IMG/VR virus record: IMGVR_UViG_3300027747_000892
Span: 1 to 42,348 of that record
Strand: one strand, 5' to 3'
Source: a virus
Length of the DNA: 42,348 nucleotides
The translations under genes and the position numbers were made by a program. Positions 10,064 to 42,348 of this stretch are shown one piece after another. Positions within the stretch are counted from its first letter, which is position 1; the number at the start of each line of letters is the position of its first letter. A model generated the notes under the pieces. It was not told where the DNA came from, did not search any database, and was given only the letters and a program-made list of their open reading frames with translations.

Positions 10064-10233
10064 ATACCAAAGAAGAAATATTAAAAGAATTATTTAAAGT
10101 TAATTCTGAAATTATTATGTCTGACTATAATGATGGTTGGTTTAAACAATACATGGAAGAAAGAAAATTAATTTTGGAAAAAATATTAAAAGAATTAGAA
10201 TCAGATGATAACGATAGTATACTCAACACATAA
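10060..10233 (+). CDS. Small protein of unknown function (57 residues)
   Basis: Begins in an ATGA overlap with the dUTPase stop and ends 29 nt into the next gene. The sequence is mostly helical and charged (EEILKELFKVNSEII, then LILEKILKELESDD). Coupled start, typical codon use and helix-forming composition support it. No function is recognised. Confidence 0.55.
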   Translation: MNTKEEILKELFKVNSEIIMSDYNDGWFKQYMEERKLILEKILKELESDDNDSILNT

Positions 10234-11722
10234 AAATCAAGAATATAATAACAAGTTCAAACAACATTTATTACAAAGCGTTGGTGTAAAAGATGTTCAA
10301 ATTTTAGAATACGTTAACCACAATCAATATTCTTTGGCTCAAGTTTATAATAGCGGAATCACAGAATCAATTTATGATATTGTTGTTTGTTGTCATAACG
10401 ATATAAAGTTAGAAAAAAACTGGGGTAAAAAACTTTTAGAAGATTTTTCAAATAATAATGACTTCTCTATAATTGGAAAAGCAGGTTCTTGTTATTTTCC
10501 CGAGTCAGGAGTATATTGGGAAAGAATGAATAAAACAATGGTTGGTCAAGTTTATCACCACCCTGAAGGTCAAAAAAAATGGATTAATAGATATTCAGTT
10601 AAATTACCATACTTAATTCCTGTTGTAACAATTGATGGACTTTTTATTTCTTTTGACAAGACCAAAATTAAACATCAGTTTGACGAAACGATTGGTAAGT
10701 TCCATTTTTACGATCATGGATTTTGTTTACCAAATTATTTAGATGGTGTTAAATTAGGTGTTACTTCTTCTTTTGAAATCACTCACGAATCGGTAGGTCA
10801 ACCAAATCAAGAATTTTGGGAGAGTAAAGAAAAATTTGTTCAAAAGTGGGGAGATAAATTACCATTGGATTTAAAACCATCAGAAGTTTATGTTCCTATA
10901 ATTAAGGAAAAACCATTAAAAAATATTGGCAAAGTTGCTGTAATAATACCGACAAAAGGTAAAGTTGATATGTTATATGATTGTGTGAAATCATTATATG
11001 ATAATTGCAATTCAAATTTGTTTGATGTATTTATTGCCGATACAGGATCAACAGATGACGAAAAAAATCAAATTAAATCTCAAATTTTACCATTAGGTAA
11101 TGTTAATTTAATTGAATACGATTATTACAATTTTGCCAAGATTAATAACGATGTTGTTAAAAATCATATAAATGATGATTATGAATTTTTATTATTCTGT
11201 AATAATGATATTAAGATATTAAATAATGTAATTTACCATATGTTAAAAGTTTTTAAAACTAAAAAAAACGTTGGTACTGTTGGGGCTAGATTACATTTTG
11301 AAAATAATACACTTCAGCATGATGGGGTAAATATAATAGTTAACGTTAATAAAAAATCGGTAATCACAACTCATTTAAAAAAAGATTCATACTATAATTA
11401 TGAAATAAATGAAAAGGAAGTTGCTGGTAACACAGCAGGTTTGATGATGATAAGAAAAAATGTTTTTAATAAGTTTGACGGTTTTAATGATAGTTTCAGA
11501 CATTGTTTTGAGGATGTGTATCTAAATTTACTTCTAATAACAAAAAATTATATTAATATAAATTTAGGTTATTGTGTTGCATATCATTACGAATCACAAT
11601 CAAGAGATATTGATAAAACAGAAACTGAAATGATTGAAGATTATAATAACATCTTAGTAAGATTTATAACCGAAAAAGAAAATTTTGAAAAAATAAAAAA
11701 ATATATTTTAACAGAGAATTAG
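10205..11722 (+). CDS. Two-domain GT2-type glycosyltransferase
   Basis: A 505-residue protein with two GT-A fold modules. Residues 1-235 begin MITIVYSTHKN and include CCHNDIKLEKNW, a shortened GT-A domain. Residues about 238-505 are a fuller GT2 domain: VAVIIPTKGKVDMLYDCVKSL, IADTGSTDD, FCNNDIKIL as the DxD-like metal site, and GTVGARLHF. The second half resembles rhamnosyltransferase-type GT2 enzymes, though the donor cannot be read from the sequence. It is the first gene of the dense glycan island. Confidence 0.8.
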   Translation: MITIVYSTHKNQEYNNKFKQHLLQSVGVKDVQILEYVNHNQYSLAQVYNSGITESIYDIVVCCHNDIKLEKNWGKKLLEDFSNNNDFSIIGKAGSCYFPESGVYWERMNKTMVGQVYHHPEGQKKWINRYSVKLPYLIPVVTIDGLFISFDKTKIKHQFDETIGKFHFYDHGFCLPNYLDGVKLGVTSSFEITHESVGQPNQEFWESKEKFVQKWGDKLPLDLKPSEVYVPIIKEKPLKNIGKVAVIIPTKGKVDMLYDCVKSLYDNCNSNLFDVFIADTGSTDDEKNQIKSQILPLGNVNLIEYDYYNFAKINNDVVKNHINDDYEFLLFCNNDIKILNNVIYHMLKVFKTKKNVGTVGARLHFENNTLQHDGVNIIVNVNKKSVITTHLKKDSYYNYEINEKEVAGNTAGLMMIRKNVFNKFDGFNDSFRHCFEDVYLNLLLITKNYININLGYCVAYHYESQSRDIDKTETEMIEDYNNILVRFITEKENFEKIKKYILTEN

Positions 11723-22634: not shown

Positions 22635-23234
22635 ATGTCATTTGAAATTATAACTACATTTGAAAATAAAATTTCTAATTTTTTTGGGTCTAAATATGCT
22701 GTTGCGGTTGATAGTTGCACGCACGGTATTGAGTTGTGTTTAAGGTATACTAAAACAAAAAAAATAAATATACCAAAAAGAACATATCTGTCTGTACCAT
22801 TTTTAGCAGAAAAAATGGGTTTAGAACGAGAATGGAGAGATGAGGTGTGGGAAGATTATTACACCCTTAATTATGATGAAAAAAGAATAATTGATGCTGC
22901 GGTTCTATGGAAAAAAGATAGTTATATCCCGCACACGTTTATGTGTCTTAGTTTCCAATACCAAAAACATTTGTCTTTAGGAAGAGGTGGTATGATTTTA
23001 CTTGATGACAAAAATGATTATATTAATTTAAAAAAAATGTCGTATGATGGTCGATTACCTGACATTCCTTGGAGGGACCAAGATATTGATTGTATTGGTT
23101 ATCATTATTATATGACACCCGAAACAGCACAATTAGGGTTAGACAAATTAGAAAAGGCAATCAACACACCACCAAGAAAATGGGTATATAATGATTGGCC
23201 AGATTTAACGCAGATGTCAATTTTTAAAAAATAG
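22635..23234 (+). CDS. Short DegT/DnrJ-type PLP aminotransferase-like protein
   Basis: A 199-residue protein, about half the length of the DegT/DnrJ/EryC1/StrS family. AVDSCTHGIELCLRY is the phosphate-binding segment of the cofactor site, and LSFQYQKHLSLGRGGMI contains the expected Schiff-base lysine. The C-terminal domain is missing or strongly shortened. Such enzymes aminate keto-sugars; directly beside GDP-mannose dehydratase it would suit a GDP-perosamine-type product. Short phage forms may still be active, so it is not called a pseudogene. Confidence 0.7.
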   Translation: MSFEIITTFENKISNFFGSKYAVAVDSCTHGIELCLRYTKTKKINIPKRTYLSVPFLAEKMGLEREWRDEVWEDYYTLNYDEKRIIDAAVLWKKDSYIPHTFMCLSFQYQKHLSLGRGGMILLDDKNDYINLKKMSYDGRLPDIPWRDQDIDCIGYHYYMTPETAQLGLDKLEKAINTPPRKWVYNDWPDLTQMSIFKK

Positions 23235-23258: not shown

Positions 23259-24233
23259 ATGAAAAAAGCATTTATTACAGGCATAAATGGACAAGATGGT
23301 TCATATTTATCGGAATATCTTTTAGGGTTAGGATATGAAGTTCATGGAATAATTAGAAGAAATTCAGTTTCTGAAAACCAACAAAGTAGATTTACTGATG
23401 AAATTAGAAATAAATTACACATTTATTATGGAGATCTTTTAGATCAAGGTAGTTTAGAGAGATTGTTAAGTGATATACAACCAGATGAAATCTACAATTT
23501 AGCGGCTCAAAGCCACGTTAGAATTAGTTACGATATTCCACAATTTACCGTTCAAACAAACGCAATAGGTGTTATTAATATTTTAGAGGCATATCGAAGA
23601 TCTTGTCCTCAATCCAGATTTTATCAAGCAAGTTCGTCTGAAATGTTTGGTAGCTCAGTGGATAAAGATGGGTATCAAAGAGAATCCACACCTATGACTC
23701 CAGTATCACCATATGGTTGTTCAAAAGTGTTTGGGTATAACATCGTAAGAAACTACAGAAATGCATATAAATTACACGCATCTAATGGAATTTTATTTAA
23801 TCATGAATCCCCAAGAAGAGGTTCTAATTTTGTTACAAATAAAGTAGTTAAAACTGCGGTAGAAATTAAATTAGGATTAACAAATCAATTAGTTTTGGGT
23901 AATATGGACTCTTATAGAGATTGGGGACATTCAAAAGATTATGTTAGGGCAATGCACTTAATAATAAATAACGACACTCCTGATGATTTTGTTGTATCAA
24001 CAATGATTACTCACTCAGTTAGAAATATGGTAGAGTACGTTTTTAATAAATTAGAATTAGATTATTCAAAATATGTAAGCCAAGACCATAAGTTCACTAG
24101 ACCAGAAGAACTTGATTATTTAAAAGGGGATTCAACAAAAATTAGAACCCAATTGGGGTGGGAGCCTGAATATACTTTTGAGACTATGTTAGATGAGATG
24201 GTAGAATATTGGCTTAATTTTTTTAAAAAATAA
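23259..24233 (+). CDS. gmd: GDP-mannose 4,6-dehydratase
   Basis: A 324-residue SDR enzyme that converts GDP-mannose to GDP-4-keto-6-deoxymannose, precursor of GDP-fucose, GDP-rhamnose and GDP-perosamine. TGINGQDGSYL is the NADP-binding glycine motif, QASSSEMFG carries the catalytic Ser/Glu, SPYGCSK the YxxxK, and NHESPRRGSNFVT the GDP-sugar binding loop. Length and motifs match the family well. Separate from the neighbours by 24 nt upstream and 79 nt downstream, it ends the main glycan island. Confidence 0.95.
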   Translation: MKKAFITGINGQDGSYLSEYLLGLGYEVHGIIRRNSVSENQQSRFTDEIRNKLHIYYGDLLDQGSLERLLSDIQPDEIYNLAAQSHVRISYDIPQFTVQTNAIGVINILEAYRRSCPQSRFYQASSSEMFGSSVDKDGYQRESTPMTPVSPYGCSKVFGYNIVRNYRNAYKLHASNGILFNHESPRRGSNFVTNKVVKTAVEIKLGLTNQLVLGNMDSYRDWGHSKDYVRAMHLIINNDTPDDFVVSTMITHSVRNMVEYVFNKLELDYSKYVSQDHKFTRPEELDYLKGDSTKIRTQLGWEPEYTFETMLDEMVEYWLNFFKK

Positions 24234-30881: not shown

Positions 30882-31101
30882 TATTAACGAAAAAAAAATA
30901 AAGGCAGGAGAAATACTTCTGATTATTAAAGAACATAAAGAAAGATCAAACAAAGATCTTCAGTTGGCAATGGATTTTATACAAGAAGATTTCAAAATAA
31001 CAAAAGAGTCTTTGATAAAGTTGACACACCATTTAGATAAATTAGAAAACACTTATAATTTATTACATAAAGAATATTCAGATAGAATTAAAATAAAATG
31101 A
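30865..31101 (+). CDS. Small coiled-coil protein
   Basis: A 78-residue protein overlapping the preceding gene by 17 nt and the next by 4 nt. Almost wholly helical with heptad-like spacing (LQLAMDFIQEDFKITKESLIKL, LDKLENTYNLLHKEY). Probably a tail or baseplate assembly helper; function unknown. Confidence 0.6.
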   Translation: MENSFNINEKKIKAGEILLIIKEHKERSNKDLQLAMDFIQEDFKITKESLIKLTHHLDKLENTYNLLHKEYSDRIKIK

Positions 31102-32648
31102 ATGGAGATAAAAACATATTTCAAGGATTTGTAATAAATAATCAAGATCCTTTGATGCTTGGTAGAGTAAGAGCAGTCCCAATCGATCAGGTTGAATCGG
31201 CTTTATTACCTGAAAATTGGAATCCTGAAAAAGATATTTGGACGGAAAAAGATCCTATAATTTATCTACCTCTTTTACCGTATTATATTAGTCAAGTACC
31301 AGAAGTAGATGAATATATTCACATATTTTACTACAATAAAACACAAATAAACGATAATACCAAATTTTACATACAAGGCCCAATAACAAGACCTCAAAAT
31401 AATAAGTTTGAAAATTGGCACAACTCAGAATCAATGCTTGCTAGTGGTGTTTTCTTAAAACAAGCAAATAACATTAAAGACCCAATAAGTTTAGAACTAA
31501 AAGGTCAAACAAAAGGTATTTATCCTGAACCAGGAGATAATGCTTTATTAGGTAGAGGAACTGCTGATGTTGTCGTAAAAGAAAGTGAAGTTTTAATAAG
31601 GGCCGGAAAAAACATACCAACACAAACATCAAGTTTTAATTTACCAACACCAAGACAAAATAGGGGATTTTTACAAATATCAAACTTTGATTTAGAAAAA
31701 AAACAATTAGACCCAATTAAAAAAACATTATTTTCCAACAAACCACAATTAGTTAAAAAATTAATAGAATGGGAAATAACAACCGAGATTCAAATTACAG
31801 GATTTACATCAGGAGGTGGAACAACAGGATCAACTTTTTACAATGGTAACATATCACTTTATTCGTTACTCCCTAAAGATAAAACTAAAAGTACTGAAAT
31901 TAATATGAACACACCACTTGATCAATATAAAAGTGGCGTTGAATATAAATTAGAATTTACCGGTAAAACTCAAGATGAGGGTGTTAAAATAATTAACCAA
32001 TTTATAAATGGAGTTAATAGTGGGAAGATAAATATTGATGGGTATGATCAATTTCCCTTAGAGAATGATTCAAGATTAGAAAAACAATTTCCATTCTACT
32101 TTAGACCAACAAAAAACAATATAGACAAATTATCTTCTTCAGCATCCACAGATTTTAATATGGTTAATAATTTCTTTAAAAAAATCAAATTATTACCTTC
32201 AGACAGACAATTTGGAAGCGTATTGGTGTGGTCAAAAAATGTTGTTGGGGAACAATTAAGTTCAGATAAAATTACATTAAAACAAAGTATTTACACACCA
32301 AATCCTGTTTCATACGGAACTATGGCATCAGATTTTATTTATTTTCTTTCTCATAAAACAGATATACCTTCTAAATCAAAAATAAATCTACAACCAAAAG
32401 AAACTTTGTATGGTATTGAACAAGAGTATTTTACACAAAATGTATTACCAAATACAGATCCAATGGTTAGAGGTAACGAATTAATGAAACTTTTAAGTTT
32501 AATTGTTCGATTTTTAGGGTCACATGTTCATAATATAAATGAAGCTCCAATTCCAATCGGAGTTGATGGAACTCAATTAGATGAAATCAACAAAATCCTA
32601 CAAGACGCAGATAATTCAATATTAAATCAAAATATTAGAATTAATTGA
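31098..32648 (+). CDS. Baseplate hub protein with gp5-like OB fold
   Basis: A 516-residue protein. The N-terminus FQGFVINNQDPLMLGRVRAVPIDQ matches the OB-fold opening of T4 gp5/VgrG-like proteins, and KGIYPEPGDNALLGRGTADVVVKESEVLIRAGK continues that fold. The C-terminus NELMKLLSLIVRFLGSHVHNINE is the conserved final helix with an HVH motif seen in phage baseplate proteins. No lysozyme domain is visible. It probably forms the hub at the tail end that contacts the host envelope. Confidence 0.78.
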   Translation: MNGDKNIFQGFVINNQDPLMLGRVRAVPIDQVESALLPENWNPEKDIWTEKDPIIYLPLLPYYISQVPEVDEYIHIFYYNKTQINDNTKFYIQGPITRPQNNKFENWHNSESMLASGVFLKQANNIKDPISLELKGQTKGIYPEPGDNALLGRGTADVVVKESEVLIRAGKNIPTQTSSFNLPTPRQNRGFLQISNFDLEKKQLDPIKKTLFSNKPQLVKKLIEWEITTEIQITGFTSGGGTTGSTFYNGNISLYSLLPKDKTKSTEINMNTPLDQYKSGVEYKLEFTGKTQDEGVKIINQFINGVNSGKINIDGYDQFPLENDSRLEKQFPFYFRPTKNNIDKLSSSASTDFNMVNNFFKKIKLLPSDRQFGSVLVWSKNVVGEQLSSDKITLKQSIYTPNPVSYGTMASDFIYFLSHKTDIPSKSKINLQPKETLYGIEQEYFTQNVLPNTDPMVRGNELMKLLSLIVRFLGSHVHNINEAPIPIGVDGTQLDEINKILQDADNSILNQNIRIN

Positions 32649-32657
32649 TATTTATAA
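32647..32657 (+). promoter_or_regulatory. Candidate late promoter element
   Basis: GATATTTATAA ending 11 nt before the ATG at 32669. Identical to the element at 34142-34152, with the same spacing. Confidence 0.5.
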
Positions 32658-32668
32658 AGAAAAAATAA

Positions 32669-34138
32669 ATGTCAATTATTAACTCCTACTTTAGTAGAAA
32701 CAACACAATAGTATATAATAGTTATGTGAATACGGGAAGAAACCCTGTAATGCAACTCTATTATGGTGATGGGGGAATTGCTAACCCTGTTGGATATTCA
32801 AGATTTATATTTGATTTAAATTTAGATTTATTAAAAGAAAAAATCGCAAACGGAACAATTTCAACAAATTGTCAAAATAGTGAAATAACTCACGTTTTGA
32901 AGATGACAAACACATCGTCATTTAATGAGGAATTACTTAATACATCTATGCCCGATGGAAGTATGAGGGCAACATCTTTTGATTTAATACTTTTTAGAAT
33001 ACCACCAGTAAATTTTGATCCGGCTTTTCCACAATATTGGGATGAAGGTGTTGGTTATGATTTTTATGATGTTCCTGATGTTTTAGGACCAAACAGGGCT
33101 TATTCTGACAGACCTTCAAATTGGTTTCAAACAACAACAATCAATAATTGGGAACAAGCAGGGATTTATAATAATAGAAATGTTGGTTTAGTTCCGTTTT
33201 CAGCAATTACCATTGTTGACATTCAGCACTTTGAATTTGGAAATGAAGATATTGAATTTGACATGACACAAGAAATTAATGATGTGTTAAATGGGGTTAT
33301 TCAAAATCCAACAGGGTGGGGAATTGCTTATTTACCACAAGTAGAGAATTTATCAGGTACAACTGGATCATATTCAGTTGGGTTTTTTACTCGTCATACT
33401 CAAACTTTTTATGAACCATACCTTCTAACAACATACAACGATTTAATTGAAGATGATAGAAATAATTTTTCTATGGGTAGATCAAATAAATTATATTTAT
33501 ATATATACGAAAACGGTGATTTTATTAATTTGGATCACACTCCTTTGGTTTCAATTTCGGATTCACAAGGAACTCCAATACAAGGTCTTCAAAATCTTCA
33601 AACATGTTTAAGAACAAGGGGGGTTTATGAAGTTACATTACCACCACTAATAGGGTATCACACACCATGTATGTTTACAGACACTTGGTCTAATATAGAA
33701 TTAAATGGTTTTAATTTACCAAACCAAATTAATGAATTTACCGTGTACCCATTTAAAAAATCCATTCAAATTGGAACAAATACAAATGATCCTGCACAAT
33801 ATGGTTTTTCTTATTATGGATTAAAACAAAATGAGAAAATATTAAACACAGATGTTAGAAAAGTTGGGGTTATTATTAAACAAGCTTATACCACAAACAA
33901 ACAATTACCAAACGTTGATGGTCAATATAGAGTTTATGTTAAAGAAGGGACTACTGAGGTGATTGTTCAAGATTGGACTACTTTAAATAGAACACCAAAT
34001 GAATATTATTTCATATTTGACACAAGAGATAAAATACCAAATGAATACTTTGTGGATATTAAAGTAACAACATCAGGTCAAATAAATGTTTATAAACAAC
34101 AAATTAATTTCTTTATTGTGAATGTTAAATCAGAATAA
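32669..34138 (+). CDS. Putative virion protein with DNRLRE-like fold
   Basis: A 489-residue protein. SRFIFDLNLDLL, later FDMTQEINDVL, GWGIAYLPQVENL and FFTRHTQTFYEPYLLTTYND follow the pattern of DNRLRE/CBM-type beta-sandwich modules found on cell-surface and phage appendage proteins. The second half (about 270-489) is another beta-rich region without recognised motifs. It is preceded by its own late-type element. A surface or fibre role is inferred. Confidence 0.65.
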   Translation: MSIINSYFSRNNTIVYNSYVNTGRNPVMQLYYGDGGIANPVGYSRFIFDLNLDLLKEKIANGTISTNCQNSEITHVLKMTNTSSFNEELLNTSMPDGSMRATSFDLILFRIPPVNFDPAFPQYWDEGVGYDFYDVPDVLGPNRAYSDRPSNWFQTTTINNWEQAGIYNNRNVGLVPFSAITIVDIQHFEFGNEDIEFDMTQEINDVLNGVIQNPTGWGIAYLPQVENLSGTTGSYSVGFFTRHTQTFYEPYLLTTYNDLIEDDRNNFSMGRSNKLYLYIYENGDFINLDHTPLVSISDSQGTPIQGLQNLQTCLRTRGVYEVTLPPLIGYHTPCMFTDTWSNIELNGFNLPNQINEFTVYPFKKSIQIGTNTNDPAQYGFSYYGLKQNEKILNTDVRKVGVIIKQAYTTNKQLPNVDGQYRVYVKEGTTEVIVQDWTTLNRTPNEYYFIFDTRDKIPNEYFVDIKVTTSGQINVYKQQINFFIVNVKSE

Positions 34139-34141
34139 AGA

Positions 34142-34152
34142 GATATTTATAA
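34142..34152 (+). promoter_or_regulatory. Candidate late promoter element
   Basis: GATATTTATAA ending 11 nt before the ATG at 34164. Confidence 0.5.
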
Positions 34153-34163
34153 AATAAAATATT

Positions 34164-34553
34164 ATGGCATTAGTAAATTTTGAATTATGTTCCCAACCAG
34201 GTGTTTTTGTTGCGGTAAATGATCTTGGAGTAACTCCTGCTCCAACCACAGGTGAAACTTATTCTATCACTTTATCGGGAACAACATATTGCGCAACCTT
34301 AGTTAGTGGATCACCATCAGGACCTGTATATGATTTAGGAACTCTTTTTGATTCTTGTTCTTCATGTTTTCAAAGTATACCAGTAACAGCAAATACAATT
34401 TATGAAAGTTGTGTTATCTGTGATCCGTGTTTATCGGGAGGAACAGCAACCGCAACTGCAGTTCCCCACCCTGTATGGACTGGTTTATACGGAAATGATG
34501 TTATTCAAGGAAATGCAGTTCAATTAGGAGGACAAAACGGATTATATAGTTAA
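34164..34553 (+). CDS. Small Cys-containing virion protein
   Basis: A 129-residue protein rich in Gly, Thr and Ser, with nine cysteines, five of them clustered as CSSC and CVICDPC. YGNDVIQGNAVQLGGQNGLYS at the end looks like a beta-tail. Together with the Cys-rich segments in the fibre and capsid proteins it suggests cross-linked or metal-bound virion parts. It has its own late-type element upstream. The role is unknown. Confidence 0.6.
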   Translation: MALVNFELCSQPGVFVAVNDLGVTPAPTTGETYSITLSGTTYCATLVSGSPSGPVYDLGTLFDSCSSCFQSIPVTANTIYESCVICDPCLSGGTATATAVPHPVWTGLYGNDVIQGNAVQLGGQNGLYS

Positions 34554-34570
34554 AAAATAAAAATAAAAAT

Positions 34571-35038
34571 ATGGATAAGTTAGATAGAATTATTAAAAGA
34601 ATTTTAAAAGAAAGTAACGATAAAGAATCTTCAAGGTATATGTTCTTTTCAAATTTAGAACAAATGAGAAGACAATGTGATATATTATTAGATTTTGACC
34701 AATCTATGATTGAGGACATTTTAGAAAATGGTCACGATTGGGCTCAGGATCACATTGCAGAAGCCAAAAACAATATGGATCAAGTTTTTGATTTTTTAAT
34801 GAATGAATCAAAAAAAGATGGTATGGAACTCTCTATGAATATTGACGATAGAGATATGGTTATGATGGAAGGTAGAAAAAAAACAGGAACAAAGTTATGT
34901 GCTAGAGGAAAGGCATCGGCTAAAGCAAAATATGACGTGTACCCCTCAGCTTATAGTAATGGCCACGCTGTTCAAGTATGTAAAGGTAAAATAAAAGGAC
35001 TTGATGGTAAAAAAAGGTGTTCCCCCCCTTTCTGTTAA
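34571..35038 (+). CDS. Candidate internal head protein with DUF5872-like C-terminus
   Basis: A 155-residue protein. The N-terminus MDKLDRIIKRILKE is a short amphipathic helix ending in an ILKE tetrapeptide, like the T4 capsid-targeting peptide cleaved by gp21. The middle is helical and acidic. The last 55 residues are basic, with TKLCARGKASAKAKYDVYPSAY, VQVCKGK and KKRCSPPFC, resembling the DUF5872-type module of phage and large-virus proteins. Possibly a packaged DNA-associated protein. A terminator follows. Confidence 0.65.
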   Translation: MDKLDRIIKRILKESNDKESSRYMFFSNLEQMRRQCDILLDFDQSMIEDILENGHDWAQDHIAEAKNNMDQVFDFLMNESKKDGMELSMNIDDRDMVMMEGRKKTGTKLCARGKASAKAKYDVYPSAYSNGHAVQVCKGKIKGLDGKKRCSPPFC

Positions 35039-35044
35039 AAAATT

Positions 35045-35070
35045 AAAAAGAGGAATTAATTCCTCTTTTT
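35045..35070 (+). terminator. Palindromic terminator
   Basis: AAAGAGGAATT followed directly by AATTCCTCTTT is a perfect palindrome flanked by A and T runs, so it can stop transcription in either direction. It closes the structural series that ends at 35038. Confidence 0.85.
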
Positions 35071-35091
35071 TTAGTTTTTAATGTTTTCCCA

Positions 35092-35099
35092 TATATTTA
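35092..35099 (+). promoter_or_regulatory. Candidate promoter (-7 TATATTTA) of the HNH gene
   Basis: TATATTTA, one base from the Bacteroidetes -7 consensus TAnnTTTG, ending 5 nt before the chosen ATG at 35105. No clear -33 TTG was seen, so it is a weak call. Confidence 0.3.
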
Positions 35100-35104
35100 C
35101 ATGT

Positions 35105-35587
35105 ATGGAAAAACAATGTAGTAAATGTAAAATGTTAAAACCTGAATCAGATTTTTATATTTCACAAAGAGGAAATAGATGTAAAGAATGTATCTTAAAA
35201 GTTACTAGAGAACATAAAAGAAGATATAGACTAAATCCTGAATTTAAAAAAACTGAAAGTTTAAAACAAAAAGAAAGAAGAGTTAGACTATGGCAAAACA
35301 CGTTAATTCACGATTCTAAAAGAAATAAAGAACATACTTTATCAGTTGATGATGTTAATGAAATGTTTGATAACCAAAATGGTTTATGTTATTGGTTTAA
35401 AATACCACTCATACCCTCTGATAAAACAAAACATCCCCAACAACCGTCGTTAGATAGGTTAGATAGAAATAAAGGATATACCAAAGATAACGTTGTTTTA
35501 TGTTGTTACTCTGCAAATATTGGTAGAAATGAAAATGATCAAGAAACTTGGGAAAATTTTTTAAATATATTGTTTAATAAAAAATAG
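35105..35587 (+). CDS. HNH-like endonuclease with N-terminal zinc ribbon (free-standing)
   Basis: About 160 residues from the ATG at 35105 (MEKQCSKCKMLKPESDFY); an ATG at 35081 also exists. N-terminal CSKC and CKEC form a zinc ribbon. GLCYWFKIPLIP, PSLDRLDRNKGYTKDNVVLCC and the final N are the core of the HNH-related family in which the central His position reads SLDRxD. Such free-standing genes act as homing endonucleases and move between phage genomes. It lies between a terminator and a host-type promoter, as expected of an inserted unit. Confidence 0.75.
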   Translation: MEKQCSKCKMLKPESDFYISQRGNRCKECILKVTREHKRRYRLNPEFKKTESLKQKERRVRLWQNTLIHDSKRNKEHTLSVDDVNEMFDNQNGLCYWFKIPLIPSDKTKHPQQPSLDRLDRNKGYTKDNVVLCCYSANIGRNENDQETWENFLNILFNKK

Positions 35588-35600
35588 TTTCATATATTTG
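35570..35600 (+). promoter_or_regulatory. Bacteroidetes-type host promoter
   Basis: TTG at 35570-35572 and TATATTTG at 35593-35600 with 20 nt between them match the -33 TTG and -7 TAnnTTTG consensus used by the main sigma factor of Bacteroidetes. The -33 part lies in the end of the HNH gene. It should drive the gene at 35621 early in infection. Confidence 0.6.
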
Positions 35601-35620
35601 TAGAACAATAAAACAAACGT

Positions 35621-36046
35621 ATGAAAAAATTATTCAACAGGTTCTACAAACGATTTAAAGTCAAAATGGCTCGATACATGAGAAACAATATGAAAACTTA
35701 TGAAGAAGTTGAGCCGCATGAAAAAACTGGATTTAAAATTTGTATTAAATTAATATCGGATAAAGATTCTGATTTTATGATCGCTCCGATGTCTCAAAAA
35801 AGATTTATTGTTAATGAAAAATTGAACATTTTTATAATCATTGATTATGGACGTGTTGAGATAACAAATCATATTTTTCATTACGATGTTAAATTAAGTA
35901 TTCGTGATTATGAAAGATTAATATATATCTATGACACAGAAACCGAAAAAAGAAGGGTAAACACCGAGAAAGAAGTAAAATCAAATATTAAAAATTCTCT
36001 TGAGACGGTGTTAGAAAGACTAACAGAAAATATTAATAAAAAATAA
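35621..36046 (+). CDS. Small basic protein of unknown function, host-type promoter
   Basis: A 141-residue protein with a strongly basic start (MKKLFNRFYKRFKVKMARYMR) and a beta-rich middle (NIFIIIDYGRVEITNHIFHYDV), then a Lys/Glu helix. No family is recognised. With a host-type promoter it may be expressed early. Its stop codon directly abuts the stop codon of the opposing gene. Confidence 0.65.
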   Translation: MKKLFNRFYKRFKVKMARYMRNNMKTYEEVEPHEKTGFKICIKLISDKDSDFMIAPMSQKRFIVNEKLNIFIIIDYGRVEITNHIFHYDVKLSIRDYERLIYIYDTETEKRRVNTEKEVKSNIKNSLETVLERLTENINKK

Positions 36047-36055
36047 TTATTTTTT
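36038..36055. terminator. AT palindrome at back-to-back stop codons (possible weak bidirectional terminator)
   Basis: AAAAAATAATTATTTTTT is a perfect palindrome; its centre TAATTA contains both stop codons (36044-36046 plus, 36047-36049 minus). It lacks G-C pairs, so termination would be weak. Confidence 0.4.
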
Positions 36056-36763
36056 TCTTGGTTTGTAACTTGTCATTACAGGTTTTTGACCTTTTCCTGT
36101 TTGAGTATCTTTCTTTTCAGCACTTCTTTTTTGTTGACAAGCAGATCTTTTTTGTGAATCACTCATCTTAGATGCAACACCTGAAGCACGACATTTAGGA
36201 TAAGCACCCTTACTTGTATCCGTTCTACCACAAGGGGGGTGTTTTCCGTCGACTTTACGACAAATGTTAACCCATGGCCCTTTTGGTTGAGAAGATCCTT
36301 TAGGTTTCTTCTTTGTCCCAAACCAAACGGCTAAATCTTCATTTAAAACACCTTTATCGGCAACTTCAACCCACTCATTAAATGGAACTTTTTCAGTATA
36401 AGGTTCCATCCTTTCTTTAAAGGATGCTTCTTTACTATTTTCAAAGTATTGATTGATAATATTTCCATCATCATCAGAAAATGTTGAATATGGGTTATGT
36501 TTAATATAATCTTGTATTTTAGCGGCAGTTCTTTCTAATTCACGAATTTGATTTCGTCTTAAATCCCAACTTTGATCATAACTATCATATTGGACTAATG
36601 GACTTTTATATTTTGAAACCGCCTGTGTAAACGGTTGTAAAGACTCTCCTGACCAAGGTCTTAATCCTGGTTGAATTGGAGCGATATAACTTCCCCTCCC
36701 ACCACTACTGTCGCCAGATGCTTCTCTAATTACTTTTCTAATGATTTGATTTAATCTGTTCAT
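36047..36763 (-). CDS. Candidate internal head protein with Cys/Lys-rich DUF5872-like C-terminus
   Basis: 238 residues when started at the ATG at 36763 (MNRLNQIIRKVIREASG); a 40-codon longer reading exists, but it would run across the divergent gene at 36798 and past the promoter element. MNRLNQIIRKVIRE mirrors the N-terminus of the 34571 protein and ends in VIRE, a gp21-type cleavage tetrapeptide. The C-terminal 75 residues (GPWVNICRKVDGKHPPCGR, YPKCRASG, SACQQKRSAEKK) are basic with Cys pairs, a DUF5872-like pattern. Likely a packaged DNA-binding protein; inference. Confidence 0.7.
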   Translation of the reverse strand: MNRLNQIIRKVIREASGDSSGGRGSYIAPIQPGLRPWSGESLQPFTQAVSKYKSPLVQYDSYDQSWDLRRNQIRELERTAAKIQDYIKHNPYSTFSDDDGNIINQYFENSKEASFKERMEPYTEKVPFNEWVEVADKGVLNEDLAVWFGTKKKPKGSSQPKGPWVNICRKVDGKHPPCGRTDTSKGAYPKCRASGVASKMSDSQKRSACQQKRSAEKKDTQTGKGQKPVMTSYKPRKK

Positions 36764-36773
36764 TTTATTATTA

Positions 36774-36784
36774 TTATAAATATC
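36774..36784 (-). promoter_or_regulatory. Candidate late promoter element
   Basis: GATATTTATAA on the minus strand, ending 10 nt before the ATG at 36763. Confidence 0.5.
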
Positions 36785-36797
36785 ATATAATTTAGTT

Positions 36798-37007
36798 ATG
36801 GAAGAAGAAAATAAAAATTTTGGCAATTTATTCAACACAATAGAGTTACTAAATGAAGACCATTTAGAGTTAATTTTAACCACAATGGATAACGAACACT
36901 CTCTATACTATTTAATTGAAGCCGTTAAATCCGCACATAGAAAAGGAGCTTTTTCTATTGGAGAAACCGAAGTGATTTCAAAATCAATTAGAACTTTATT
37001 AAAGTAA
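36798..37007 (+). CDS. Small acidic protein of unknown function
   Basis: A 69-residue protein divergent from the 36763 gene, separated by 34 nt. Helical composition with AHRKGAFSIGETEVISKSIRTLL at the end, which looks like a conserved helix pair. Codon use is typical of neighbours, and the free start region supports it. Function unknown. Confidence 0.55.
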   Translation: MEEENKNFGNLFNTIELLNEDHLELILTTMDNEHSLYYLIEAVKSAHRKGAFSIGETEVISKSIRTLLK

Positions 37008-37035
37008 ACCAAAAAATCAACTATTAAAATTAATA

Positions 37036-37066
37036 TATAAAAAAAGGGACAATTTCTTGTCCCTTT
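37036..37066 (-). terminator. Terminator after the major capsid gene
   Basis: On the minus strand AAAGGGACAA pairs with TTGTCCCTTT across a 4-base loop, followed by a T run. It is 23 nt past the capsid stop codon. Confidence 0.85.
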
Positions 37067-37088
37067 AATGTTATTTTTAAGATTTTGA

Positions 37089-39002
37089 TTATCTCAATTC
37101 TCTTAAGTCGAATGTTCTAACACCATCTACGGTAATTCTTCCGTAAAATCTGTTGTTCACCATCTTCTTCGCGTATCTGGTCATAATACCTTTGATTGGC
37201 GTGAAGTTGAATGGGTTATACATTGTAGGTGTCAATTGTAGAGGTACATACGGTGCGTAGATGTAACCTGTGTCTAACAATGATGTTCCTTTGTGTCCAA
37301 TCAAAACTTGGTTTGCTGGGAAGTAAGGATCACGATAAACTTGGTAACGTCCAGACAATGTACCAACTCTTTCAATACCCATGTTGTATTGGTCTTGATC
37401 AGGAGCCGCGTTAGATACGTGGAAGTATTCTAAATCGTCAAAGATAGCAGAAACCTCAGAAGAAACAACGATCCAGTTAGCACCACCTCTCAAAGTAGAT
37501 TTGTGGATTTGTGCTGACAATTGGTTAATTGCTGTAATCAAAGTTTGGTTCCAGTCTTTTTGAGTGTAAGATGTAGTAGCGTTAATTCTTCTCCATCCGT
37601 TGTAGTCCCAACGTAATTGCCATGCTGCACCTTTACGTAGGTCACGTAAGATCTCACGGTCAATTTCAGCAGCAACTTGTTCTGACAACAACGCTGTCAA
37701 TTCAGCTTCAGCATCGATGTTATGGAATGCAGCAACGTCTTGTGCTAATTCAGGAGACCATTGTGCTCTTAGTTTTCTTTCTGTAACAGATACAGTTACT
37801 GACTCAAGGTCAAAAGAAACCTCACCAATTTGATCTTCAAATTCCATTTCAGCATATCTTCTATACCAAGCCAAGAATGAACCACCAGAAGTACCTGAAT
37901 AGATAGTAGTTCCTGTGTAACCATCTAATGATGTTGCGTCACAATCAGCACATACTGGACAAGATAAATCTACTTCAAGATAGATACATCCGTCTTGAGA
38001 ACAAATATTGTTGTAGTTACCACCATCACCAGTATTAGTACCAGTTGCATTACCACTGTTTCCAAATACAGTTGACGTGTTAGTACTTGTAGGTGTAACA
38101 ATTCCTTGTCCGTAAATTTGAGTTACAACTCTAAACAATAGAGGAACAAATACAGTTTGACCGTTATAAGTACTTGTAAACACATTACAAGGTGTAGTTG
38201 CTGCAGAAATTACTGAAGTTCCATAGATTCTTAAATCAGAAAGGAAAGATTCAGTATCCATTTCATTTCCATCAGGACCAATAAGTTTTCCTGTACCAGC
38301 GTTAGCAAAACCACAAAGTTTCATAATAACTTTTCTTGTGTTACCAGAGTAAGTATCTAATGAGGTATTAACAAGTGAAGAACCTGCCCATGCTTGAACA
38401 GTAGTGTTTGCTGTAACAGCAGTCCACTTACCTTTAGAGTAATCAAACAATCCTGGAGGATCTAAAGAAGCTTCATTTCCTTCATAGAACAAGTCATACA
38501 AGTCTTTTTTGTAAGGATAGTTAGGTGCAGTTCCACCTGGATAACCTGAGTTAACGTCAGTTGGTCCGTTAGGTGATCCTATTGGTGCGTAGTGTTGACC
38601 ACCAGCAGTTCCAACTCCTGTTTGAGGATATGCGTTTGCCAATTCAGAAGATGCGTTTGAATATCCTTGTATTCTTGGTACAAAGAAGAACAATTTACCG
38701 ATAGGTAAGTTCATTGCTTGTACAGATACGATGTCGTTAGCCAACAATTTAGAGAATACACGTCTTACGATTGGGAAAACAACTGTTTCAAATGCTCCGT
38801 TAGAAGAACCATCTGAAGTTGCTTCGTTAATCAAGAAAGATGCTTGGTTCTCATATAATTGAGCTACGTTTTCTTTTAGGTGGCCTTTAAGACCTTCAAG
38901 GAACCCTAATTTGTCCCATTTGTTAATTGTGTCTTCTTTGATAACTTTAAGGTGTTTTAACCCGATGTTACCTACAAGACCTGATTCTAATAATGCTCCC
39001 AT
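37089..39002 (-). CDS. Major capsid protein, T4 gp23-like
   Basis: A 637-residue protein that forms the head shell. Matches to T4 gp23: PIVRRVFSKLLANDIVSVQAMN at about 77-98, then VSFDLESVTVSVTERKLRAQ and SPELAQDVAAFHNIDAEAEL around 395-436. FLINE at 56-60 followed by A is in the same place as the T4 cleavage site FLTE/A, so the first 60 residues are probably removed by the prohead protease. T4 gp23 has 521 residues; the extra length includes residues about 300-375, with Cys334, 339, 348, 351 and 354. GC content is visibly higher than the neighbours, as expected of a highly expressed gene. Confidence 0.95.
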   Translation of the reverse strand: MGALLESGLVGNIGLKHLKVIKEDTINKWDKLGFLEGLKGHLKENVAQLYENQASFLINEATSDGSSNGAFETVVFPIVRRVFSKLLANDIVSVQAMNLPIGKLFFFVPRIQGYSNASSELANAYPQTGVGTAGGQHYAPIGSPNGPTDVNSGYPGGTAPNYPYKKDLYDLFYEGNEASLDPPGLFDYSKGKWTAVTANTTVQAWAGSSLVNTSLDTYSGNTRKVIMKLCGFANAGTGKLIGPDGNEMDTESFLSDLRIYGTSVISAATTPCNVFTSTYNGQTVFVPLLFRVVTQIYGQGIVTPTSTNTSTVFGNSGNATGTNTGDGGNYNNICSQDGCIYLEVDLSCPVCADCDATSLDGYTGTTIYSGTSGGSFLAWYRRYAEMEFEDQIGEVSFDLESVTVSVTERKLRAQWSPELAQDVAAFHNIDAEAELTALLSEQVAAEIDREILRDLRKGAAWQLRWDYNGWRRINATTSYTQKDWNQTLITAINQLSAQIHKSTLRGGANWIVVSSEVSAIFDDLEYFHVSNAAPDQDQYNMGIERVGTLSGRYQVYRDPYFPANQVLIGHKGTSLLDTGYIYAPYVPLQLTPTMYNPFNFTPIKGIMTRYAKKMVNNRFYGRITVDGVRTFDLRELR

Positions 39003-39028
39003 TTTTTTTGGTTTTTATTATTTATTGT

Positions 39029-40573
39029 TTATTTTATTTTTGTCATCAAATCCTTCATTCTTAAGAATTGTGGATTTTCGTAAGTTTTTGATTCAATTAA
39101 ATTTGCTGATGACCCTGTTGAAACAGATTTATTCACAGTTCTTTCAATTGATTCGTTTATTGAGTTTTCTTTACTTACACCATTTCCTAATTCATTTTTA
39201 ATGGCTCTGTATAGATTTTTCGATTCTTTCAAAGATTCAACATTATCAAATCTTCTTAAGATGTTTATTTTTTCTTGTTTTGTGGTTGAATGTTCAGTAA
39301 ACAATCTTGTAGAATAAGCCAAGTTAGAATTAAAAACTGCAACTTCATTCAATTTCGTTCTAAACACATCAAGAGCTTTTCTGTATTCTTCATTTTTCTC
39401 TCTTAACGAGTTTACTTCATTAGATTCCGAAATTTTAAATGGATTGTATTCATAATTTCTGTTGTTTGTTCTTGCCTTTCTTAAACCACGGCTACCATTT
39501 TTAGATCCATTACCATAAGTTCTTGACGCTTCTTTGGTCTCAACTTTTTTCATAGATCCTTTTTTCATGTTTTCGCCTTCTTTATATTCGAATTTGGCTT
39601 TTCCTGTTCCCATCGCTTTAGTTCCTTTTCCAAAAGCTTCTTTTCTTTTGGAGTTAAAACCTCCATTCATATTAGGTTTTTTGTCGTAACTAAACTTAGG
39701 ACCTTTTCCAATACCAACACCTTTAGTTTTAATGGCTTTTTTAACGGATTCCATAACTGAGTCAAAATCTTCATCATCCATTTCCATCATTTCCATATCA
39801 TCCATTTCCATCATTTCCATATCATCCATTTCCATCATTTCCATATCATCCATTTCCATATCATCCATTTCCATGTCGTCCATTTCCATCATTTCCATGT
39901 CGTCCATTTCAAGTTCATATATAGTTTCTTCTTCACCAAGACCTAAACCACCTGTGATTGCTCCCATTGCAGCTCCGCCCCAATTAAATTCAGAAACTTC
40001 AGAACCCATTTCATCATCCATTTCGATCTCATAGAGTGTTTCGTTATCAAAACCTTCCATAAACTCATCATCCATTTCCATCATTGAATCTTCTTCTGAT
40101 TCACCCAAATGGATCATGTATTCGTTATCTCCATCAGTAAAATGAATATTTTCACCTTCTTTTTTCACAACGATTCCGTCTTGATCACCCATAGCTTTAA
40201 AAACTCTTAAAACTTCCGCATCTGACGCTCCCGTCATATCGATAGTTTCTTCCTCATCTTCCATATCGTCAGAACCCATTTCATCATCCATTTCCATTTC
40301 ATCATCCATTTCCATGTCCTCATCGTCCATTTCCATTTCATCTTCCATTTCCATGTCGTCATCCATGTTTTCGTCCTCAACTTCAGTTTCAGTGTCAAGT
40401 TCATCTGTGTCAACCTCTTCTTCATCTTGTTCTCTAAGAGATTCTTTTACTAGTTGTCTGATTTCTTCACTCATCGTAGAATGAAGTATTCCTTTTGCAT
40501 TTTCTTGTAGAGTCTCCTCCAAATTCTTGATTTGGAAAAGAGCGTCTTCTACTACATTTTTGTTGTTTGTCAT
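39029..40573 (-). CDS. Prohead scaffold (core) protein, T4 gp22-like
   Basis: A 514-residue, very acidic protein directly before the capsid gene, as gp22 is in T4. Acidic repeats of the MEMDD type occur at about 64-104 and 221-268. The C-terminal third (KNEEYRKALDVFRTKLNEVAVFNSNL, then INILRRFDNVESLKE) is helical and resembles the conserved end of T4-like core proteins. T4 gp22 has only 269 residues. The core forms inside the prohead and is degraded by gp21. A glycine- and lysine-rich middle (about 275-375) is unusual. Confidence 0.82.
   Translation of the reverse strand: MTNNKNVVEDALFQIKNLEETLQENAKGILHSTMSEEIRQLVKESLREQDEEEVDTDELDTETEVEDENMDDDMEMEDEMEMDDEDMEMDDEMEMDDEMGSDDMEDEEETIDMTGASDAEVLRVFKAMGDQDGIVVKKEGENIHFTDGDNEYMIHLGESEEDSMMEMDDEFMEGFDNETLYEIEMDDEMGSEVSEFNWGGAAMGAITGGLGLGEEETIYELEMDDMEMMEMDDMEMDDMEMDDMEMMEMDDMEMMEMDDMEMMEMDDEDFDSVMESVKKAIKTKGVGIGKGPKFSYDKKPNMNGGFNSKRKEAFGKGTKAMGTGKAKFEYKEGENMKKGSMKKVETKEASRTYGNGSKNGSRGLRKARTNNRNYEYNPFKISESNEVNSLREKNEEYRKALDVFRTKLNEVAVFNSNLAYSTRLFTEHSTTKQEKINILRRFDNVESLKESKNLYRAIKNELGNGVSKENSINESIERTVNKSVSTGSSANLIESKTYENPQFLRMKDLMTKIK
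39770..39909 (-). repeat. 24-base repeats coding for acidic Met-rich units
   Basis: Tandem copies of about 24 bases (plus strand TTTCCATCATTTCCATATCA plus TCCA) encode repeated DDMEMMEM units in the scaffold. At least three near-identical copies are followed by shortened variants. The regular unit and few mismatches suggest recent expansion. Confidence 0.8.
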
Positions 40574-40594
40574 ACTTTTTATAAAATATTTTTC

Positions 40595-40605
40595 TAATAA
40601 ATATC
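40595..40605 (-). promoter_or_regulatory. Candidate late promoter element of the scaffold-capsid unit
   Basis: GATATTTATTA on the minus strand, ending 21 nt before the ATG at 40573, between that gene and the terminator at 40639-40678. Confidence 0.5.
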
Positions 40606-40638
40606 ATCAAAAAGTAAAAAATTGTTTTTTTGACACAA

Positions 40639-40678
40639 TAAAACAAAAAAAAAGGGAAAAGACTATTGTCTCTTCCCA
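40639..40678 (-). terminator. Terminator between the 40705 gene and the scaffold gene
   Basis: On the minus strand GGGAAGAGAC pairs with GTCTTTTCCC (one G-T) around an AATA loop, followed by nine T. It separates gp21-type protease transcripts from the strongly expressed scaffold-capsid unit. Confidence 0.88.
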
Positions 40679-40704
40679 ATTTTTAAACTAAATTAAATGA
40701 TTTT

Positions 40705-40917
40705 TTATGATTCAATAACCTCATCAATTTTACTTTCAGAAATTGAAGTGATTCTCCAATCCATCGTGTAATTTTCATAAACTTTGGTTACTTTGGCCTC
40801 AACATCGGTAGGTGAGTATCCTCTAACCAATTTTTCTTCTCTCATTTTTTTAACTTTTCCAGTTTCAGTATCAACCATATCGGTTGTAATCTTTGCGATA
40901 AAATATTTTTCGTCCAT
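40705..40917 (-). CDS. Small DUF4494-like protein
   Basis: A 70-residue protein between the protease and scaffold genes, 6 nt after the protease stop codon. YFIAKITTDMVDTETGK, then EEKLVRGYSPTDVEAKV and DWRITSISESKIDEV follow the layout of DUF4494, a small domain seen mainly in Bacteroidetes. T4 has small head genes (67, 68) in this region too, but no similarity was seen. Function unknown. Confidence 0.6.
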   Translation of the reverse strand: MDEKYFIAKITTDMVDTETGKVKKMREEKLVRGYSPTDVEAKVTKVYENYTMDWRITSISESKIDEVIES

Positions 40918-40923
40918 AATTTA

Positions 40924-41652
40924 TTATTTATTCAAATAATCGGACAATCTATTCATTAAGTCAAGCGATTTTGATCCTGTTTCACCAATTTGTCTTTCGG
41001 CGTTAATTCTTTTTTCTTCGTCAAGATTTTCTTCAAAGTTTAATCTTTCTTTTGGGTCACTAAAAAGATATGCTCCTGGCGTTGATGGTGAAGATACTAA
41101 GTCAAAACAGATTAATTCAAAATCATCTTGAACCTCATTTTGTTCTCCAACCTTTTTAAGTGATCCCACACCACGAGAAGATATACCCAACGTTACACCT
41201 TGTCTTAAATAGTTTGCTGCCAAATCACCTTTGGTTGATACAATACCTCTTTCGTGAAAACCTGGACTTGTTAATAATTTTAACTTACCTAAAAGAACTG
41301 GACCTTCCCACCATATTTCGGTAATAAGATGAGAAACTCTATCAAGGTCGATTAAAGATGATTCAGGGTGATTCAACTCAGAAAGAGAAGTTCCTTTATC
41401 AATTATTTTTTTATAATTCTCAGATTCTCTTTTAAGAATTTTTTCGGGATATATTCTTCCGTTTCTATTTGGGGTGTTATATTTTTGAAGAACCGCATAA
41501 AACTCAAATGGTTTTGAATGATCCAACATATTTTTACTTTCTCTAATCATTTGAAGATTTCTTCTTTCGTTTGGATCGATATATCCAGCGTCATATTCAA
41601 CAAGAATTCCTTTTCCTGATTCTCTTGGTCCTAAAATTTTATAATTTTCCAT
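40924..41652 (-). CDS. Prohead core protease, T4 gp21-like
   Basis: A 242-residue serine protease that matures the prohead by cutting scaffold and capsid precursors after [LI]xxE. Conserved blocks: NTPNRNGRIYP (59-69), LSELNHPE with His95, HLITEIWWEGPVLLGK (108-123) and GISSRGVGSLKK with the Ser at 158/159. FDLVSSPSTPGAYL follows as in the family. The length matches T4 gp21. A late-type element lies 13 nt upstream. Confidence 0.93.
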   Translation of the reverse strand: MENYKILGPRESGKGILVEYDAGYIDPNERRNLQMIRESKNMLDHSKPFEFYAVLQKYNTPNRNGRIYPEKILKRESENYKKIIDKGTSLSELNHPESSLIDLDRVSHLITEIWWEGPVLLGKLKLLTSPGFHERGIVSTKGDLAANYLRQGVTLGISSRGVGSLKKVGEQNEVQDDFELICFDLVSSPSTPGAYLFSDPKERLNFEENLDEEKRINAERQIGETGSKSLDLMNRLSDYLNK

Positions 41653-41665
41653 TAAGTATTTTTAT

Positions 41666-41676
41666 ATATAAATATT
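41666..41676 (-). promoter_or_regulatory. Candidate late promoter element of the protease gene
   Basis: AATATTTATAT on the minus strand, ending 13 nt before the ATG at 41652; it overlaps the last codons of the upstream gene. Confidence 0.45.
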
Positions 41677-42142
41677 AAATAGTTTCAATTTCTTTTTTTA
41701 TTGGTTTTTGATTACCATTTTTTGTTAGATAACATTTGAAATATTTGTTTTTTGCCAACACATCACCATATACATTTTTGATTAAACTTTTTACATATTT
41801 TTTTAATTTTGGTGATTTGAAATCCATAGATTCTAATAAAAATAGATTAATTTCTAAATTCATAAAAGATTTCTTTTTTGGTTGAAGTCCGCTTGTTCTA
41901 AGATCTAGATCAACTATAAATTTTGTGTCGAATACTTCTTTGTTTATTTTATCTAAAACTGTGTGTTTGACTGATCTTGACATATTTAACACAACTCGAT
42001 TCCAATTTTCTACCTCGTCTTTTGGTTCAACCCATGTTTGTATGTTTATAAAAATCGATTTTAGATTTTGAGAGTCTATTGTCCCATAATTAGATTTAAA
42101 TGTTCGGTAACCAGTTAATTTGGTAGTTTTTCCTTTTTTCAT
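41675..42142 (-). CDS. Unknown protein at the start of the head cassette
   Basis: A 155-residue protein preceding the protease. Segments such as LKSIFINIQTWVEP, VLNMSRSVKHTVLDKI and FIVDLDLRTSGLQ look like a mixed alpha-beta fold; no family is recognised. In T4 the small core proteins gp67 and gp68 lie upstream of gp21, so a head-assembly role is a guess from position. Confidence 0.6.
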   Translation of the reverse strand: MKKGKTTKLTGYRTFKSNYGTIDSQNLKSIFINIQTWVEPKDEVENWNRVVLNMSRSVKHTVLDKINKEVFDTKFIVDLDLRTSGLQPKKKSFMNLEINLFLLESMDFKSPKLKKYVKSLIKNVYGDVLAKNKYFKCYLTKNGNQKPIKKEIETI

Positions 42143-42194
42143 ATATTTTTTCCATATGCTAATTGTTTATTTTGTTATAATTGTAATCAATTAT

Positions 42195-42205
42195 TATATT
42201 TATAT
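42195..42205 (+). promoter_or_regulatory. Candidate promoter of the bS21 gene
   Basis: TATATTTATAT ending 18 nt before the ATG at 42224. The first eight bases, TATATTTA, are also one base from the host -7 consensus TAnnTTTG, so late or host-type use cannot be told apart. Confidence 0.4.
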
Positions 42206-42223
42206 CAAACAAGAAAAAAAATT

Positions 42224-42348
42224 ATGTTAATTGTTGAAGTTAAAAATGGGAACATCGAAAAATCTTTAAAAAATTTAAAGGGAAAAATAATTCGTACCAA
42301 ACAAAATGTTATTTTATTTGACAGAAAAGAATTTGTTAAACCATCGGT
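42224..42348 (+). CDS. rpsU: Phage-encoded ribosomal protein bS21 (partial)
   Basis: The first 41 codons read MLIVEVKNGNIEKSLKN, then LKGKIIRTK and DRKEFVKPS. This is the layout of bS21: the MxIxVxxGExIxxALxxxK opening, a basic helix, and an RRxxFxKPS block at about residue 36-42 (here DRKEFVKPS). The rest is beyond the window. bS21 binds the 30S platform close to the anti-Shine-Dalgarno end of 16S rRNA. A phage copy could replace the host protein and favour phage mRNAs. The gene is divergent from the head cassette. Confidence 0.82.
   Translation, partial: MLIVEVKNGNIEKSLKNLKGKIIRTKQNVILFDRKEFVKPS

Follow-up and report, generated by a model that had tools for sequence, protein, structure and literature searches.

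The window, an entire virus record of 42,348 bases that is possibly a fragment, ends within a real, intact phage gene for ribosomal protein bS21 that is under selection. As judged from leader sequences, this gene and its phage relatives are outside the Shine-Dalgarno (SD)-based control typical of host rpsU, because phage bS21 leaders had a median pairing energy with the 16S tail of -1.7 kcal/mol, compared to -21.0 kcal/mol for Flavobacterium rpsU and -15.8 kcal/mol for rpsU across the Bacteroidota.

An intact bS21 gene at a published phage locus

The bS21 reading frame (42224-42346, plus strand) is open to the contig end, which cuts the gene after its 5' 41 codons (42224-42348). The Pfam family PF01165 recognised this fragment with an E-value of 1.1e-5 and 21.8 bits, which is below the 27-bit curated cut-off and comes from profile positions 2-40 of 55. 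Near-identical contigs supplied the rest of the gene. Contig L004 (IMGVR_UViG_3300027777_001479), recovered by a scan with the adjacent prohead protease, shares 99.97% identity with the window over positions 30927-42348 (11,422 bases), extends past the window's last base and contains the complete gene. Two other contigs (L089 and L090) match all of the gene's first 125 nt in the window exactly and encode the intact 62-aa protein MLIVEVKNGNIEKSLKNLKGKIIRTKQNVILFDRKEFVKPSVKIREGKKKAVYIQKLKSNKD. A full-length copy with one residue different scored 31.6 bits and passed the PF01165 cut-off. The median dN/dS was 0.095 for 18 ungapped bS21 representatives, with synonymous sites near saturation. An artefact or a pseudogene was rejected because of the identical intact copies and this dN/dS. 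A sequence-only reading of the window had recognised the bS21 layout in the partial frame, and the PF01165 match and the complete copies confirmed it. The full frame that it had asked for is 62 aa long with no disruption beyond the window, and the KPS-RR block on which it had staked the assignment is present as KPSVKIR, which retains one of the two usual arginines.

The closest solved chain by sequence was the bS21 of Flavobacterium johnsoniae (7JIL, E-value 1.3e-6). An AlphaFold model of the phage protein showed three helices with a mean pLDDT of 82, and a Foldseek search with it gave no significant match, which is unsurprising for a protein this small and extended when it is modelled without its RNA. 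A genome scan with the phage bS21 alignment recovered zero bacterial relatives, and the same scan with F. johnsoniae bS21 as the query yielded 80 loci.

The bS21 gene lies alone on the plus strand beside a block of minus-strand genes. These encode the major capsid protein (Gp23, PF07068; 37089-39002), an acidic repeat-bearing protein (39029-40573), a DUF4494 protein (PF14902; 40705-40917), the prohead core protease (Peptidase_S77, PF03420; 40924-41652), and a divergent 155-aa hypothetical protein that is a conserved neighbour (41675-42142). The acidic protein had no Pfam match and is scaffold-like by its position between protease and capsid only. It carries MEMDDMEM-type repeats and is 514 aa long in the window and 493 aa in the close relative L134, so the repeat copy number varies. 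To the right of bS21 in L134, a 238-aa gene lies tail to tail with it at a 4-base overlap, followed by a 151-aa gene and the portal gene (phrog_213), all on the minus strand.

Of 63 related contigs with sufficient length for a judgement, 60 had the bS21 gene at the same site. Three relatives (L066, L068, and L069) kept both flanking genes and had a short spacer instead of bS21. This spacer between the 155-aa and 238-aa genes contains a terminator-like inverted repeat, the head-gene block is whole, and the three represent natural bS21-free comparison phages. The neighbour of bS21 was considered as its partner (the bS21_CN of Chen et al.) and rejected, since both flanking genes persist in these phages and neither is strictly dependent on bS21 here. 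In Chen et al., by contrast, bS21_CN was absent from the two bS21-free outgroups.

The locus has the architecture published for Bacteroidota lake phages (Chen et al. 2022, PMC9723584), and the window adds another such phage. The match was pieced together from the left side in the window and the right side in L134, with the terminase lying outside the window. As in the lake myoviruses, a lone antisense bS21 gene is flanked on either side by a hypothetical gene, and the protease, capsid, and portal genes are only a few genes away. The N-terminal half of its protein is likewise divergent, and an aromatic residue occupies position 54 of the F. johnsoniae numbering. PhoH, dUTPase, DegT-family aminotransferase, and polysaccharide genes are further features in common, and Bacteroidota are the hosts predicted for the lake phages. 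A Bacteroidota host is probable, as suggested by the DUF4494 gene (a family that, of 14 control genomes, only Bacteroides carried), the Flavobacterium protein as the closest solved bS21, and an SD-less genome. The Bacteroidota host implied by the sequence-only reading was judged right as a probable assignment.

Leaders of phage bS21 and host rpsU

The phage genome does not use SDs. A core SD was found in none of the 51 window genes, while shuffled leaders gave 0.9; pooled relatives had 12 in 524 genes against 12.1 expected, and the T4 control had 23 in 38 genes against 3.7 expected. The earlier view that the genome avoids SDs is right in that the genome is SD-less. Active avoidance was not established, since chance alone predicts 0.9 of 51 and the relatives match their expectation.

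We expressed SD strength as the pairing energy of a leader with the 16S tail GAUCACCUCCUUUCU and defined an extended SD as one below -13 kcal/mol. The bS21 leader in the window (42204-42223, plus strand) is A-rich and has no SD; its best pairing was -2.5 kcal/mol, short of the extended SD of autoregulated Bacteroidota rpsU. All 32 distinct Flavobacterium rpsU leaders were below -13 kcal/mol, as were 46 of 66 leaders Bacteroidota-wide, while 20 of the 66 were not. Among 104 phage bS21 leaders, one was below -7 kcal/mol and none was below -13 kcal/mol. The one below -7 kcal/mol, from the 735-kb phage LR756501 (-12.1 kcal/mol), was considered as a case of a kept host SD and discounted, because strong pairings in that stretch match chance (10 of 82 genes below -8 kcal/mol, 9.0 expected). 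The viral contig L361 (IMGVR_UViG_3300002520_000085) encodes a bS21 77% identical to that of F. johnsoniae, and its leader is the same as those of two bacterial genomes (L401 and L402), which may reflect host DNA in the viral record or a recent transfer.

Because its start site lacks a strong SD, phage bS21 is probably produced outside the host's feedback. Since every gene of the phage is without an SD, selection need not have acted on bS21 specifically to remove it. We found no mention of SD-less phage bS21 leaders in the open-licence papers searched, PMC9723584 among them, and we believe that the contrast between phage and host leaders has been unreported there so far.

A second feature of the bS21 leader is a TATTTAT element within TATATTTATATCAA (42195-42208, plus strand; TATAAATA on the reverse strand), located at -27 from the bS21 ATG. 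Across the phage group, 109 of the 322 non-redundant leaders contained TATTTAT, compared to 11.6 in dinucleotide shuffles. Of the window-type bS21 leaders, 36 of 83 had it (3.8 in shuffles), and of the 63 Flavobacterium rpsU leaders, none did. Within the window, TATTTAT[AT] lies 18 to 30 bases upstream of 8 of 52 genes (shuffles: mean 1.26, largest 7), including bS21, the protease and acidic-protein genes, and late-type genes at 32669 and at 34164; none of the genes between 5.6 and 32.6 kb was preceded by it. This pattern suggests that TATTTAT is probably a late promoter common to bS21 and virion genes, with putative activity and direction, which agrees with the late transcription of a related phage bS21 reported by Chen et al. 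(PMC9723584). That paper does not discuss the SD-less leader, the contrast to rpsU, or the TATTTAT element.

Possible roles of the phage bS21

In F. johnsoniae, bS21 helps to close the anti-SD, and ribosomes without intact bS21 are more efficient on rpsU and less so on SD-less mRNAs, so that the extreme SD on rpsU results in bS21 autoregulation (McNutt et al. 2023, PMC9976891). Tyr54 of the protein is reported to stack on A1534 of the anti-SD, and its mutation to Ala frees SD-dependent translation (PMC9976891). The phage protein resembles F. johnsoniae bS21 in family, length, the Tyr54 equivalent, and the C-terminal KA-YIQ region, which is retained. It differs in overall sequence (44% identity), in its replaced middle, and in its leader (-2.5 versus about -21 kcal/mol). 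The equivalent of Tyr54 is Tyr53 in the phage protein, which was invariant in a 14-sequence alignment including the host-type protein; a few further relatives outside this alignment have His or Phe at the position. The middle region reads GKIIRTKQ in the phage and RKFDKTGT in the host, a replacement common to the whole phage group.

The sequence-only reading had noted this divergent middle and proposed that it alters anti-SD masking. The divergence itself was upheld. The proposed change in masking was not, because the masking tyrosine is retained and the divergent middle is a group-wide signature of phage proteins, overlapping positions whose divergence Chen et al. had already described (PMC9723584). 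With Tyr53 as the contact residue compared, the evidence points to masking being kept rather than altered. A role of bS21 in favouring phage mRNAs is possible and has already been proposed (PMC6375957, PMC9723584).

The best explanation, which we hold with moderate confidence, is that this T4-like (Gp23/S77) phage of Bacteroidota produces a functional late bS21 that enters the 30S subunit, keeps the anti-SD closed, escapes the host feedback, and lowers host rpsU. The phage bS21 would be made most likely in late infection, its SD-less mRNA being translated by ordinary bS21-containing ribosomes, and would join host 30S subunits by replacing or adding to host bS21. There it would hold the anti-SD tail closed, and the ribosomes would stay tuned to SD-less mRNAs like the phage's own. 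Lacking an SD, the phage bS21 mRNA would escape the host loop, where the best translators of rpsU are ribosomes deficient in bS21. With phage bS21 filling the deficient subunits, SD-dependent host rpsU would be turned down, and host bS21 would be progressively replaced.

This explanation builds on features read directly in the DNA: an intact selected gene, its head-gene context, the missing SD, the upstream element common to virion genes, and the retained masking tyrosine. Late expression in this phage, incorporation, feedback escape, and rpsU shut-down are what we infer, with support from published late transcription (PMC9723584), the rpsU loop (PMC9976891), and ribosome entry (PMC6375957). 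Against it, the SD is absent genome-wide and its absence at bS21 need not be specific to this gene. The host may lack the loop, since 20 of 66 Bacteroidota-wide rpsU leaders were not below -13 kcal/mol. Exchange in late infection on pre-made ribosomes may be limited, and three close relatives live without bS21. The sole phage bS21 tested, that of pelagiphage HTVC008M, was incorporated into E. coli ribosomes and severely impaired translation, leaving ~5% activity in vitro (Mizuno et al. 2019, PMC6375957). HTVC008M is also a myovirus-type phage with a bS21, and its incorporation was demonstrated in E. coli; its protein differs from the one studied here, with 40% identity over the window fragment and the greatest similarity to the protein of its own alphaproteobacterial host.

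A stronger version of the preferred explanation is tentative and somewhat doubtful. Freed from SD-dependent autoregulation, phage bS21 might turn off rpsU via the host's own loop, take over the ribosome pool, and lock an SD-blind state with no protease needed. Neither this version nor the preferred explanation would call for the protease that, as McNutt et al. speculated (PMC9976891), phages might deploy against host bS21.

Three other readings assign different roles to the protein. In a phage-selective ribosome, the divergent N-terminal half near the mRNA path would give a direct preference for phage transcripts, as put forward by Chen et al. 2022 and close to the idea of the sequence-only reading. 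The group-wide concentration of divergence in the N-terminal half and middle fits such a role, as does the location of the N-terminal helix where mRNA would bind (PMC9723584). However, we found no signal specific to phage mRNAs for bS21 to recognise: the leaders are SD-less and A/T-rich like the host class, the enriched TATTTAT is better read as a promoter, and the divergence may be mere drift or a fit to host variants. We consider a direct preference rather unlikely. Plain supplementation, in which phage bS21 tops up a protein that becomes limiting once host expression stops and leaves regulation and selectivity unchanged, agrees with bS21 being loosely bound and exchangeable (PMC6375957), and purifying selection and the kept C-terminal region would fit a conservative replacement. 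The group-wide divergent middle and the SD-less, feedback-free leader would be superfluous for a top-up, though neither excludes it, and we regard this reading as unlikely. Very improbable in our judgement is a protein that inhibits host ribosomes, or one carried in the virion and active at the onset of infection. The ~5% activity of E. coli ribosomes points towards inhibition, but that result may be a species mismatch only, and a late brake would harm the synthesis of the phage's own virion proteins; the position of the gene among head genes would suit packaging, which Chen et al. raised (PMC9723584).

The extreme SD of host rpsU and its absence from about a hundred distinct phage leaders make escape from, or exploitation of, the rpsU feedback addressable by a direct reporter experiment. 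Mutants in bS21, reporters with and without an SD, and a ribosome structure are already available for F. johnsoniae.

Other genes in the window

 Between 7761 and 24233 on the plus strand, there is a long series of glycosyltransferase, FkbM-like, and sugar-nucleotide genes, including those for a two-domain glycosyltransferase (10205-11722), the DegT-family aminotransferase (22635-23234), and a GDP-mannose 4,6-dehydratase (23259-24233), these three being assigned by Pfam matches. This gene run probably serves glycan or surface modification. Long tracts of Thr-Pro repeats (TPTPTNTPTPT) mark proteins of the virion region encoded on the minus strand at 891-2435 of the window and at 7249-8073 of L134, and these proteins are possibly glycosylated linkers or fibres.
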